Part shown: positions 49,330 through 54,533 of the stretch, piece after piece
Layout: every line of letters starts with the position of its first letter
Numbering within the stretch: position 1 is the stretch's first letter
Source of the DNA: Luteimonas rhizosphaericola
GTDB lineage: Bacteria > Pseudomonadota > Gammaproteobacteria > Xanthomonadales > Xanthomonadaceae
Direction of reading: 5' to 3'
Length of the DNA stretch: 64,000 bases
NCBI RefSeq assembly: GCF_029888045.1
Contig: NZ_JARXRN010000025.1
Span: 216,368 to 280,367, forward strand
Position numbers and translations under genes: made by a program
Notes under the pieces: generated by a model
Seen by the model: the letters and a program-made list of their open reading frames with translations, nothing else
Database searches by the model: none
What the model was told of the DNA's origin: nothing

Positions 49330-50268
49330 ATGAGCGCTGCACGCGCCTTCGACCTGCGTCCGTACTGGGCGCTGACCAAGCCGCGCGTGGTGGCGCTGAT
49401 CGTGTTCACCGCGCTGGTGGGGATGTTCCTCGCGGTGCCGGGCCTGCCGCCTTGGCGCGAGGCGGTGTTCGGGCTGCTCGGCATCTGGCTGGCCGCGGCC
49501 TCGGCCGCCGCGATCAACCACCTGATCGACCAGCGCATCGACAAGGTCATGGTGCGCACCGCCGACCGCCCGCTCGCCACCGGCGCGCTGCGCCCGGCGC
49601 AGGTGCTGGCGTTCGCGGTCGCGCTGGGCGCGCTGTCGATGGCGCTGCTGGTGGCGCTGGTGAACCCGCTCACCGCCGCGCTCACCTTCGCTTCGCTGAT
49701 CGGCTACGCGGTGGTCTACACCGGCTTCCTCAAGCGCGCCACGCCACAGAACATCGTCATCGGCGGCATCGCCGGCGCGGCGCCGCCGCTGCTGGGCTGG
49801 GCCGCGGTGACGAACATGCAGGGGCAGTGGGACTGGGCCCACGCGCTGCTGCTGGTGCTGATCATCTTCGTGTGGACGCCGCCGCATTTCTGGGCGCTGG
49901 CGATCTTCCGCCGCGACGACTACGCGCGTGCGCTGGTACCGATGCTGCCGGTGACCCACGGCGTGGCCTACACCCGCTGGCAGATCCTGTTCTACACCGT
50001 GCTGCTGTGCGTGGTGACCCTGCTGCCGGTGGCGATCGGCATGAGCGGGCTGTTCTACCTCGGCGGCGCGGTGGTGCTGGGCCTGGTGTTCCTGTGGTAC
50101 GCCTGGCGCCTGCTCGATCCACCGGACGAGCTGTTCGCGATGAAGGTGTTCAACTACTCGGTGGTGTACCTGATGGCGCTGTTCGCGTTCCTGCTGCTCG
50201 ACCACTGGCTGCTGCCGTGGATCGATCCGGCGCCGGTGCAGGCGTTCGAGCTGCAGCGCGTCGGCTGA
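49330..50268 (+). CDS. ctaB: Protoheme IX farnesyltransferase (heme O synthase)
   Basis: A 312-residue UbiA-family prenyltransferase with about nine helices that adds farnesyl to heme B to make heme O, the substrate of CtaA. The first Asp motif is [19 protein letters not shown], and [20 protein letters not shown] is the second conserved loop. [17 protein letters not shown] is also typical. It starts 145 bp after ctaA and ends 12 bp before the convergent immunity-like gene. Confidence 0.96.
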
Positions 50269-50280
50269 GACCTGCAGGCG

Positions 50281-50670
50281 TCAGGCCGGCCGCGCGCGCT
50301 CCGCGACTTCGGCCAGCGTCGCGGGCGTGATTTCCCACTGCGCCGCCTCGTCGTAGACGAACTCGGCGTGCAGCCTGCCGCCGGCGCGGCGCAACTGGAT
50401 CACGCACACCGTCCACGGCGCCCGGCCGTCGACGCGGGTCGCCTCGCGCAGCTCGTCCAGGCGCGCGCCGATGGTGTCGAGCGCGGCCTGCGGCGTCGCC
50501 GCGCGCGGCGCCTCGCCGTCGCGATAGCCGAAGCCGCTGATCCGGCGCGCATCGCCGGCGTAGTCGGCGATCAGCGCATAGCCGTCCAGGTCGTGTCCGG
50601 CGGTGGCGATGTCGCGCACCAGCAGTTCGCCGATGCCGCGCACCAGCGCGTCCTTGTCGGCGCCGCTCAA
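50281..50670 (-). CDS. Probable YezG/DUF600-type immunity protein
   Basis: A 129-residue acidic cytosolic protein that follows the nuclease toxin gene and overlaps its stop as TTGA (TTG start at 50670; a GTG about 27 nt inside is an alternative). The C-terminal half, LDTIGARLDELREATR, WTVCVIQLRRAGGRLHAEF and VYDEAAQWEI, resembles DUF600/YezG proteins, which neutralise YeeF-type nuclease toxins in Bacillus and accompany such toxins elsewhere. The resemblance is moderate, and the assignment leans on the coupling to a toxin with the matching nuclease class. Confidence 0.6.
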   Translation of the reverse strand: MSGADKDALVRGIGELLVRDIATAGHDLDGYALIADYAGDARRISGFGYRDGEAPRAATPQAALDTIGARLDELREATRVDGRAPWTVCVIQLRRAGGRLHAEFVYDEAAQWEITPATLAEVAERARPA

Positions 50671-51908
50671 GCGCGCATCCCGATCATCGAATCCATGTCC
50701 TCGCGCGCGATCCGGTCGAACACCTGGCCTGCCTCGTTGTCGAACACCACCAGCTGCGGATCATAGACCGTGCGTCCGCTGGCCGGGTCGATCACTTCGT
50801 AGTCCACCCGCACTTCGTCGGGGCGGCGCGTGTTCTCCGGCCCCAGCGTGACCTGGATGCGCACGTCCATGCCCGCGCCCAGCCAGTCAGCCCATTCCTG
50901 CTCCATCGCGGCGAACACGCGCTGGTTGAAGTGGCTCTGCTGCGGGAACATGTTCACCGGCCCGTGGCCGTTGACGAAGCGGTAGGCGATCACGTGGCCG
51001 ACGTCGTCGCCGCTGCCCTTCATGTCGTTGTCGGCGCGGAAGCGGCTCTGCGCGTTGGCCTCGATGCGGTCGGACTCGCGGCCGCCGCTGCCCGGCTCCC
51101 AGGTCAGCGTGGCGTCGGCCGAGCGCGGGCGTCCGCTGTCGTCGAGCGTCCACACGACTTCATTGGTCTCGCCGCTGCCGGTCTCGGTCACGGTGCCGGT
51201 GATCGCGCGCCCGTCCACGTCCTCGGCGATGCGTACGCTCGCCTCGTGCGGGGTGCCGTCGAGCAGCATGCGGGTGTAGCCGGCGCGGTCGGTGCCGGCC
51301 GGGTCGTCGAGCAGCGCGGTGTGGCGGATGAAATCCTGCCGGTCCGCCGGGAGCGACGCCGGCCCGCCGTCGCGCGGCGCGTCGAACAGGGCCTGGCTGG
51401 CGGTCATCACCCGCAGTTCGCCATCCGCGGTCATCTCCAGCGACAGGCGCACGTCGCTGACGGCGCCCAGTCCGTTGGCCTTCGCCAGCGCCTGGAAGCT
51501 GGCCTCCAGCGGCGTGCCGAGCGTGTCGGCGCCCTGGATCTCGATCCGCGTCCGCGGCGGAATGGTCGAAGGGTCGAACGGGTTCACCTCGCGCATCTGC
51601 AGCGGGCTCGCGTGCTCGTTGCGCAGGGTGACGCTGTAGCGCACCTCGACCGACTGCGGCGCGACGCCCGGCGCCGATGCCTCCACCGTGCCCGAGGCCG
51701 CGTAGTGGGTGTTCCACTGGTCGGCGCGCTCGTCCTGCAGCCGGACCGAGGCCGGGTCGAGTGCGAAGCGGACGTCCGCCGGATCGGCGGCGAGCAGGTC
51801 CGGCCCGAAGCCGGGCACTGCGCCGGCGAAGGCGGGCGGGGCCGACCATCCGGGCCAGTCGCCCCCGGGAGCCGTCGGCGGCGGGAAGCGGAACGTCTCG
51901 TCCATCAT
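50667..51908 (-). CDS. Probable DNA/RNA non-specific endonuclease toxin
   Basis: A 413-residue protein with no signal peptide or membrane helix. Residues 1-250 are unrecognised and rich in beta-type sequence (VEVRYSVTLRNEHASPLQM; FRFPPPTAPGG at the start). Residues about 255-385 match Endonuclea_NS_2-type nucleases: DDVGHVIAYRF (301-311, D-x-GH), NMFPQQSHFN with Asn319 and Asn328, then EQEWADWL and VRIQVTLGPENTRRPDEVRVD. This domain ends many polymorphic toxins. The coupled downstream gene looks like its immunity protein. No PAAR, Rhs, LXG or clear XVIPCD delivery domain is visible, so the export route is unknown. A perfect 16-bp palindrome lies 20 bp upstream. Confidence 0.75.
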   Translation of the reverse strand: MMDETFRFPPPTAPGGDWPGWSAPPAFAGAVPGFGPDLLAADPADVRFALDPASVRLQDERADQWNTHYAASGTVEASAPGVAPQSVEVRYSVTLRNEHASPLQMREVNPFDPSTIPPRTRIEIQGADTLGTPLEASFQALAKANGLGAVSDVRLSLEMTADGELRVMTASQALFDAPRDGGPASLPADRQDFIRHTALLDDPAGTDRAGYTRMLLDGTPHEASVRIAEDVDGRAITGTVTETGSGETNEVVWTLDDSGRPRSADATLTWEPGSGGRESDRIEANAQSRFRADNDMKGSGDDVGHVIAYRFVNGHGPVNMFPQQSHFNQRVFAAMEQEWADWLGAGMDVRIQVTLGPENTRRPDEVRVDYEVIDPASGRTVYDPQLVVFDNEAGQVFDRIAREDMDSMIGMRA

Positions 51909-51927
51909 GCGCAGGCCGGGGGCGTGC

Positions 51928-51943
51928 GGTGCCGTACGGCACC
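51928..51943. promoter_or_regulatory. 16-bp palindrome upstream of the toxin gene
   Basis: GGTGCCGTACGGCACC, perfectly symmetric, 20 bp before the toxin ATG in the divergent region shared with the ATP-grasp gene. It has the size and symmetry of an operator for a dimeric repressor. No cognate regulator is adjacent. Confidence 0.45.
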
Positions 51944-52050
51944 CTCGGTGAGGCAGGGTACGCAGCCCCGGCGGGGCGCGACATTGGGGAAAACCCGGGG
52001 CGGGACGCGCCCGCCGGCCGCGTCGTGCCGGCCCCGTCACCCCCCGCCCC

Positions 52051-52056
52051 TATACT
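52051..52056 (+). promoter_or_regulatory. -10 box upstream of the ATP-grasp/alpha-E gene
   Basis: TATACT, five of six to consensus, 68 nt before the ATG at 52125; no good -35. Confidence 0.4.
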
Positions 52057-52124
52057 CTGCCGTCCGACCCGCGGTCGGTCGCGGTCCGCGCCCGGGGCCG
52101 CGCCGGGACGCGGCCCGCCACCGG

Positions 52125-54533
52125 ATGGATGCGCACGCGATGCCCGCAGCTCCGCCAATCCCCGGTCACGCCGACGGCCTGCAGTCGCGCTACCGGACGC
52201 TGTGGGGCGGGGTGGACGAGATGCTCGGCACCGATGGCCAGCTGCGCCCCGTGTGGCAGCGCTTCGTGCACATGCTCGACGGGTTGACCGAGACCGAGCT
52301 CGCCTCGCGCTTCGCCCGCGCCCACCAGTACATGCGCGATGCCGGCGTGTACTACAGCGCCTATGACGACCGCGGCGGCCCGCGCGAGCGCGAATGGCCG
52401 CTCTCGCCGCTGCCGGTGCTGATCGATGCCGCGGAATGGCGCGACATCGGCGCCGGCCTGGTGCAGCGCGCCGAACTGCTCGAGCGCGTGGTGGCCGACC
52501 TGCACGGTCCGCAGCAGCTGGTGGCCGACGGCCTGCTGCCGCCGGAGCTGATCGCCGCCAATCCCGAGTTCCTGCGGCCGATGGTCGGGGTGGCGCCGCG
52601 TGGCGGCCACTACCTGCATTTCTGCGCATTCGAGCTCGGGCGCGGGCCCGACGGCCGCTGGTGGGTACTGGGCGACCGCACCCAGGCGCCGTCCGGCGCC
52701 GGCTTCGCGCTGGAGAACCGCGTCGCCACCGTGCGCGCGTTCCCGGACCTGCCCGAGGACATGCACCTGTACCGGCTGGCCGGCTTCTTCCGCCGCTACC
52801 GCGATGCGCTGCTGGACCTGGCCGACGGCCGCATGGGCGCGATCGGTGTGCTCACGCCGGGCCCTAACAACGAGACTTATTACGAACACGCCTGGCTCGC
52901 GCGCTACCTCGGCGTGCTGCTGCTGGAAGGCGACGACCTGACCGTGCGCGACGGCGCGATGCACGTGCGCACGGTGTCGGGCCTGCAGCCGCTGAGCGTG
53001 CTGTGGCGGCGCGTGGACGCGGCCTTCGTCGATCCGCTCGAGCTGCGCGGCGACTCGTGGATCGGCACCGCCGGCGCCGTGGGCGCACTGCGCGCCGGCA
53101 GCCTGACGATGGCCAACGCGCTCGGCTCGGGCGTGGTCGAGACGCGCGCGATGCAGGCCTTCCTGCCGCGCATCTGCCACGCGCTCACCGGGCAGGCGCT
53201 GCAATTGCCGGGCATCGCCACCTGGTGGTGCGGGCAGCCGGCCGAACGCGAGCAGGTGATCGCACAGGCCGACCGCATGCTGATCGGCCCGGCGTTCTCC
53301 ACCCGCCTGCCCTACGAGGATCCGCAGGCCACCCGTCCCGGCGCCCAGCTCGACCCCGACGAACGCGCGCGCCTGCTGCAGCAGCTGCGCAGCGACGGCG
53401 CGCGCTGGGTGGCGCAGGAGGCGGTCAGGCTCTCGACCACGCCGGTGTACATGGACGGCCGCCTGGAGCCGCGCCCGTTCGTGCTGCGCGCGTTCGTGGC
53501 GCGCACGCCCGACGGCTGGGAAGTGATGCCCGGCGGCTTCGCCCGCATCGGCGCCCAGGCCGATACCCGCGCGATCGCGATGCAGCTCGGCGGCCAGGCG
53601 GCCGACGTGTGGGTGGTGGGCGAGCGCCCGGTGGTGCAGGAGACGCTGCTGGCGGGGGCCCACCTGCAGCGGCGCGAGTCGGCGCTGCCCAGCCGCGCGG
53701 CCGAGAACCTGCTCTGGCTCGGCCGCTACACCGAGCGCAGCGAGGCCATCGCGCGCGTGCTGCGGGCCTACCACGTGCGTCTGGCCGAGATCGGCGACCA
53801 CCCCGCGCCGCTGCTCGACGTGCTGGGCGACTACCTCGACCGCATCGGCGTGGAGGTCATCGATCCCATTCCCGCGGGCCTGCTGCGCAGCCTCGACGGC
53901 GCGGCCACCAGCGCCAGCCGCATCCGCGACCGCTTCTCGCCCGACGGCTGGGGCGCGCTGCACGACCTGTCCACCACTGCCAACCGCTTCGCCGAGCGGG
54001 TGACGGCGGGCGACGACGCCAGCCGCGCGGTGACGGTCCTGCTGCGCAAGCTGGCGGGCTTCTCCGGCCTGATGTACGAGAACATGTACCGCTCCAACGG
54101 CTGGCGCTTCCTCGAGATCGGCCGTCGCATCGAGCGCGGCATCCAGATCGCCGACGTGCTCGCGCTGCTGTTCCGCAGCGAGGCCCCGGCGGGGCTGCAG
54201 CAGGCGCTGCTGGAGATCGCCGACAGCGTCATGACCCACCGCAACCGCTACGGCGTCAACGCCGGCCCGCACAGCGTGCTCGACCTGCTGGCACTGGACG
54301 GCGCGAACCCGCGTTCGGTGATGTTCCAGGTCGACAAGCTGCGCGAGGCGTTCGCGCAGCTGCCGGCAACCGGGGCCGGCCACCCGCTGCCCGACTTCGC
54401 CCGCCAGGCGATGCGCCTGCACACCGAACTGGCCACCCGCGATGCCGCGGCGCTGGATCCGGCGACGCTCGCCGGCCTGTCGCGCGACATCGCCGGGCTC
54501 TACAACGGCGTCTCGCGCGCCTATTTCCATTGA
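52125..54533 (+). CDS. Circularly permuted ATP-grasp fused to alpha-E domain
   Basis: An 802-residue cytosolic protein that joins two families usually encoded separately. Residues about 20-480 form the circularly permuted ATP-grasp type 2 region (DUF404/DUF407), with LLPPELIAANPEFLRPM, GVAPRGGHYLHFCAFELGRG, NETYYEHAWLARYLGV, LRAGSLTMANALGSGVVET and YMDGRLEPRPFVLRAFV. Residues about 520-800 are alpha-E (DUF403): LPSRAAENLLWLGRYTERSE, MYENMYRSNGWRFLEIGRR and FQVDKLREAF. Comparative work predicts that such proteins make or modify peptides together with a transglutaminase-like partner, present next door. Biochemical function is unproven. Start at 52125 or the ATG at 52140. Confidence 0.9.
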   Translation: MDAHAMPAAPPIPGHADGLQSRYRTLWGGVDEMLGTDGQLRPVWQRFVHMLDGLTETELASRFARAHQYMRDAGVYYSAYDDRGGPREREWPLSPLPVLIDAAEWRDIGAGLVQRAELLERVVADLHGPQQLVADGLLPPELIAANPEFLRPMVGVAPRGGHYLHFCAFELGRGPDGRWWVLGDRTQAPSGAGFALENRVATVRAFPDLPEDMHLYRLAGFFRRYRDALLDLADGRMGAIGVLTPGPNNETYYEHAWLARYLGVLLLEGDDLTVRDGAMHVRTVSGLQPLSVLWRRVDAAFVDPLELRGDSWIGTAGAVGALRAGSLTMANALGSGVVETRAMQAFLPRICHALTGQALQLPGIATWWCGQPAEREQVIAQADRMLIGPAFSTRLPYEDPQATRPGAQLDPDERARLLQQLRSDGARWVAQEAVRLSTTPVYMDGRLEPRPFVLRAFVARTPDGWEVMPGGFARIGAQADTRAIAMQLGGQAADVWVVGERPVVQETLLAGAHLQRRESALPSRAAENLLWLGRYTERSEAIARVLRAYHVRLAEIGDHPAPLLDVLGDYLDRIGVEVIDPIPAGLLRSLDGAATSASRIRDRFSPDGWGALHDLSTTANRFAERVTAGDDASRAVTVLLRKLAGFSGLMYENMYRSNGWRFLEIGRRIERGIQIADVLALLFRSEAPAGLQQALLEIADSVMTHRNRYGVNAGPHSVLDLLALDGANPRSVMFQVDKLREAFAQLPATGAGHPLPDFARQAMRLHTELATRDAAALDPATLAGLSRDIAGLYNGVSRAYFH

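Follow-up and report, generated by a model that had tools for sequence, protein, structure and literature searches.

A putative nuclease toxin-immunity cassette in Luteimonas rhizosphaericola built on a domain common to exported proteins

We analysed a 64,000-nucleotide stretch of the Luteimonas rhizosphaericola genome (contig NZ_JARXRN010000025.1, positions 216,368 to 280,367; the whole stretch is called the window here), which carries two overlapping genes on its minus strand. Judged from their sequence, they probably form a two-gene antibacterial toxin-immunity cassette, in which the toxin sits on a domain common to exported proteins. The C-terminal part of the toxin has the sequence of an EsaD/NucA-type metal-dependent nuclease, putatively a DNase, and its N-terminal module (N-module, residues ~30-230) corresponds to the first half of a ~400-residue core domain. 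Pairs of this type, Tox-NucA/Imm36, are already known, and the novelty sits in the N-terminal part of the toxin. By computation, this analysis established the genes with their domains and catalytic residues, the coupling of the two genes, their conservation and the kinship of the N-module (Table 1).

Table 1. Features of the toxin-immunity locus (window coordinates; pLDDT, predicted local distance difference test).
Feature	Position	Strand	Remarks
Immunity gene, 129 residues	50281..50670	-	TTG start, overlaps toxin stop by TTGA
Toxin gene, 413 residues	50667..51908	-	ATG start, TGA stop
Proline-rich leader, residues 1-29	51822..51908	-	pLDDT below 50
N-module, residues 30-230 (VNPFDPSTIP at 108-117), matching first half of exported-type core domain	51219..51821	-	hhalign
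Nuclease domain, residues 231-404	50697..51218	-	DNA/RNA non-specific endonuclease fold (Tox-NucA, EsaD-like)
His305, counterpart of EsaD catalytic H528	50994..50996	-	
Asn328, counterpart of EsaD Mg ligand N551	50925..50927	-	

Both open reading frames (ORFs) lie on the minus strand where a first-pass annotation, made from the letters alone, had placed them, and the toxin start agrees with the N-termini of orthologues. The annotation had described an Endonuclea_NS_2-type C-terminus with a D-x-GH motif, Asn319 and Asn328. The profile search with PF13930 that it proposed matched residues 249-371 above the cut-off (E 2.3e-12, 47.7 bits, cut-off 27), and D301-D302-V303-G304-H305, N319 and N328 are present in the sequence. 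The boundary of the domain had to be moved, from residue 255 to near 231, where the fold begins. All 67 rows of the nuclease alignment keep H305, N319 and N328, and the toxin has both the Tox-NucA active-site pattern GH, N, N, E and the nuclease fold. The best match of the toxin profile in the PDB was EsaD (8guo_B, E 2.5e-5). A Pfam search of the toxin at E <= 10 returned two nuclease families and nothing else, with no match to LXG, Rhs or PAAR.

The TTG start of the partner and the TGA stop of the toxin share TTGA, as the annotation had claimed. EsaG (8guo_A, E 0.0033) was the sole PDB match of the partner family profile, and the profiles of toxin and partner thus match both chains of one solved complex (8guo). 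At E <= 0.1, PF04634 (YezG) matched 15 of the 26 rows of the immunity-protein alignment, with a best value of 2.6e-10 that may stem from a single added EssD-type row (L021). The first-pass annotation had held that the pair would fall if homologues always lacked the downstream gene; at each of the 25 genus loci, 22 with the N-module and 3 with other N-termini, the partner comes directly after the nuclease. In a survey of named genomes, made by a scan with one peptide pattern, at least 59 loci with the core domain were found. Among those listed, an immunity-profile match within 900 bases was present at all 11 loci with a nuclease (8 from Luteimonas, mostly the same genomes as the genus loci, and 3 from Lysobacter) and at none of the 48 without one, of which one (L166) has under 50 bases of downstream sequence. 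The immunity gene therefore goes with the nuclease and not with the N-module. The same toxin and immunity cassette stands behind different N-termini at L016/L017, L092, L097 and L098. The proposed polymorphic-toxin order, a toxin followed by its coupled immunity gene, was upheld.

In nine pairs of relatives, the ratio of non-synonymous to synonymous substitution rates (dN/dS) was 0.06-0.53 across N-module, nuclease and partner, which rules out a chance ORF or a dead gene. Because of these values and of the position of the partner in the genus loci, the toxin and its partner are more than a chance arrangement. The genus also holds a second, more EssD-like type of NS_2 toxin with another N-terminus (L019 and L021, genomes G028 and G032, with a similar match in G067); a YezG-like ORF lies downstream of the more distant toxin L021.

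According to the first-pass annotation, the first 250 residues of the toxin matched nothing. This does not hold, since residues ~30-230 match half of a domain that occurs in LysM proteins, XVIPCD proteins and actinobacterial WXG100-like proteins. Profile comparison with hhalign gave a probability of 99.4 against the LysM proteins (profile positions 30-231), 98.7 against the XVIPCD proteins (84-238) and 93.6 against a 700-residue class (88-224), one member of which is encoded in the same genome; the control, a comparison with the immunity profile, gave 0.1. The structure prediction that the annotation had suggested modelled residues 41-230 with confidence, as a soluble alpha+beta domain (pLDDT 87-98 in ten-residue blocks), and residues 1-29 poorly, as listed in Table 1. 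One full-length relative of the core domain was predicted to form a beta-barrel.

Residues 1-240 match 104 database proteins, of which 103 carry PF13930 and one (P0066) stops before the nuclease; among named proteins, those of Luteimonas are closest. Profile matches were obtained in 44 of 52 genus genomes: 22 with the full toxin, 3 with the same nuclease on other N-termini, and 19 with the N-module in frames of ~560-765 residues, a distant nuclease, or both. In a sample of 299 genomes from the order (at most 6 candidates scored per genome), the full toxin was found only in the genome of the window, and 264 had no match. The same architecture also occurs in Lysobacter antarcticus, Lysobacter sp. 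A03 and GX 14042.

Outside the genus, the order sample yielded 12 N-module loci (L099-L110). All four scanned relatives from other genera of the family (L101, L105, L106 and L107) carry XVIPCD (PF20410, E 7e-13 to 1e-21), and L099, from another family, carries LysM according to Pfam. The database search with the core domain gave 211 matches, the best 120 of which include relatives from Oerskovia, one of them named a WXG100 type VII target (47% identity). TIGR03930 (WXG100) matched 16 of 17 actinobacterial core rows at E <= 0.1, the row shown reaching 22 bits against a cut-off of 44.85, and the Pfam WXG100 family matched 1 of the 17. Within the survey of named genomes, 46 loci were scanned (22 LysM, 11 nuclease, 5 XVIPCD, 8 none of these); the remaining 13 are actinobacterial and included in the 17 rows. 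Among the papers searched, none mentioned XVIPCD together with LysM or with WXG100, and a single one combined Luteimonas with polymorphic toxin. Similar core proteins (P0142 and P0201, one named Archangium) share the motif KFNDAYSTGRAxAL ahead of the core, which is perhaps another targeting signal.

The N-terminus of the toxin had been proposed to be a new delivery module without signal peptide, LXG, Rhs or PAAR features. The absence of the last three stood at Pfam E <= 10, that of a signal peptide was judged by eye alone, and the proposed delivery role is unproven, as the export signals of the relatives sit in other domains that have no counterpart in the toxin. A run of three prolines within residues 5-35 was found in 13 of the 22 toxins, compared with 14 among 670 called genes in the window genome (toxin included); the orthologues are not independent, and this enrichment is only suggestive. 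An earlier background of 166 genes gave 5 positives, all toxins or related effector-like genes, and was biased because it was drawn around genes of interest. Large helical proteins of the genus (L117-L131, L133 and L135; mostly in frames of 840-930 residues, some about 1420) in many cases have a short leader with a proline run, and L117 has the start MHDGGG in common with LysM proteins of the N-module family; this may be a shared export leader. The window genome also encodes a 326-residue protein, LysM-like by eye, with such a triple-proline leader (L238:3603-4583, minus strand).

Possible routes of delivery were surveyed with three markers (TssC, VirB8 and XVIPCD) in the 52 genus genomes. TssC was found in 15 genomes, 8 of them among the 22 toxin-bearing ones, without association (p 0.36). 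VirB8, conjugative types included, was found in 31, among them the window genome, again without association (13/22 toxin-bearing versus 18/30 others). XVIPCD proteins occur in 19 genomes, with one in the window genome, and only for them did Fisher tests of secretion systems show an association (13/22 versus 6/30, p 0.008, kinship uncorrected); in three of those six genomes (G004, G025 and G066) the same nuclease stands behind other N-termini. The toxin-bearing genomes G005, G034 and G073 have neither TssC nor XVIPCD, and G073 (94% complete) also has no VirB8. None of the three markers therefore explains delivery alone, and the co-occurrence survey that the annotation had called for indicates no single system.

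Several of our results weigh against an exported toxin with its own immunity protein. The toxin yielded no export signal, none of the three markers is present in all 22 toxin-bearing genomes, and no secretion genes were seen, by eye, next to the pair. The partner taken as a single sequence scores under the family cut-offs, both for PF04634 (E 0.047, 14.3 bits, cut-off 21.7) and for TIGR01741 (E 0.0026, 17.9 bits, cut-off 82.05). Because of the PF04634 score we term it YezG/EsaG-like and not a formal family member; the likeness to YezG/DUF600 put forward in the first-pass annotation holds for the family profile and not for the sequence alone. Moreover, no immunity-like ORF was seen downstream of the distant NS_2 toxin L019.

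The secretion systems of the window genome bear on how a toxin-immunity cassette of this kind may be delivered. A canonical type IV effector (X-Tfe) of the Xanthomonadales type IV secretion system (X-T4SS) is ruled out, as XVIPCD (PF20410) has no match in the toxin at E <= 10. It is possible, though doubtful, that the toxin is an atypical effector (T4E) that lost or never needed XVIPCD and is delivered by, or acts with, the X-T4SS. The XVIPCD found in module relatives of sister genera and the association reported above agree with this, as does a VirB cluster of the window genome with VirB8, VirB3 and a 148-residue VirB7-like protein (TcpQ 26.1 bits, just under the cut-off of 27), which we read as X-T4SS-like. 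Luteimonas is among the genera credited with X-T4SS or X-Tfes (PMC6759196, PMC6536674), and effector-immunity pairs lacking XVIPCD have been described in Lysobacter and Xanthomonas (PMC10989847). However, XVIPCD proteins are missing from 9 of the 22 toxin-bearing genomes, and VirB8 shows no association with the toxin. Our tentative first guess for the window genome is export by the X-T4SS through a non-canonical signal. An XVIPCD protein with a small gene alongside (L139:3356-4849, minus strand) is a candidate canonical X-T4SS effector-immunity pair of this genome. The T4SS nuclease TfdA of Stenotrophomonas is related to GHH nucleases and is of another type (PMC11253643).

Delivery by a type VI secretion system (T6SS) is highly improbable: TssC is present in 8 of the toxin-bearing genomes, but there was no TssC match in the other 14, among them the window genome (completeness given as 100), for which this route was rejected, and Pfam found neither PAAR, VgrG or Hcp nor any other T6SS domain in the toxin. 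A substrate of the type VII secretion system (T7SS) of the LXG kind was ruled out, with no WXG or LXG match at E <= 10 in Pfam or NCBIfam; the name 'Type VII' given to these proteins in some databases probably derives from the nuclease domain.

The toxin could also be bacteriocin-like, freed by lysis or in vesicles, with an N-terminal part that binds the target surface and carries the nuclease in. This we consider unlikely. The pair stands alone, a full-length relative of the module was modelled as a beta-barrel, and LysM occurs in 22 of the 46 scanned relatives, but the toxin holds only half of the core domain, in a soluble model, and a search limited to Pfam identified no receptor-binding or TonB-type feature. 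As a long shot, the core domain may be a family of soluble cargo that is exported by unrelated machines (X-T4SS, T7SS) and refolds or inserts as a beta-barrel in the target envelope, the half retained in the toxin being a translocation device for an EsaD-type nuclease. Under this reading, the toxin could do without an injection machine dedicated to it.

On one side of the pair lie plus-strand genes that we take to encode cytochrome oxidase and heme O synthase (ctaB-like); beyond the pair there are presumably an ATP-grasp gene and a transglutaminase-like gene, and further on a peptidase and DnaG. In 12 of 22 carriers the pair has a ctaB-like gene no more than 1.5 kb away, and 3 others show partial matches at the locus end; the pair therefore looks like an old resident. 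Its G+C content resembles that of the surroundings, which together with the conserved neighbour gives no support to a recent foreign island. Promoter and terminator scans of positions 50200-52200 and an Rfam search of 40000-64000 gave nothing. The conserved neighbour and the overlapping genes would also fit a module that always stays inside the cell, as a toxin-antitoxin pair or a self-killing defence, and the atypical T4E Le1637 is reported to be active in defence (PMC10989847). We regard this as distinctly unlikely, since in separate lineages relatives of the core domain come with export signals (XVIPCD, WXG100-like), and EsaD/EsaG and Tox-NucA/Imm36 are described as inter-bacterial weapons (PMC9616950, PMC3482391).

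If the pair is an exported toxin-immunity cassette, the N-terminal part, a proline-rich leader and half a core domain, would be the carrier, and DNA degradation in a target cell would fall to the nuclease. Inside the producer, the EsaG/YezG-like partner would bind the nuclease and, by analogy with EsaG, may act as a wedge in its central beta-sheet that disrupts the active site. The pair would give Luteimonas a testable antibacterial weapon, whose delivery is unexplained by the secretion systems surveyed. It lends itself to the question of how toxins of this kind get to other cells, as the family of its front part occurs with unrelated secretion signals and ties together type IV effectors, type VII-like proteins and an EsaD-type nuclease, which are normally separate. 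One passenger domain with varied export signals would allow the question of pore, adhesin or translocator to be asked directly.

EsaD (EssD)/EsaG of Staphylococcus aureus and YeeF/YezG of Bacillus are like the Luteimonas pair in the catalytic His, the metal-binding Asn and the adjacent EsaG-type partner. EsaD, however, leaves through the type VII system of a Gram-positive host, whereas the Luteimonas toxin belongs to a Gram-negative host and has an N-terminus of another family. Among polymorphic toxins, Tox-NucA is the main partner of Imm36 (DUF600, two conserved Trp), gammaproteobacteria included, with the same GH, N, N, E motif and the same Imm36-type pairing as here; the N-module is not mentioned in the passages of that description covered (PMC3482391). 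With X-Tfe/X-Tfi pairs of Xanthomonadales, the Luteimonas pair shares the logic of effector and immunity protein, and its N-module is common to XVIPCD proteins of sister genera. It differs from X-Tfes in lacking XVIPCD, and from the atypical T4E Le1637, which is a phospholipase A1 family protein (PMC10989847), in being a putative EsaD-type nuclease.
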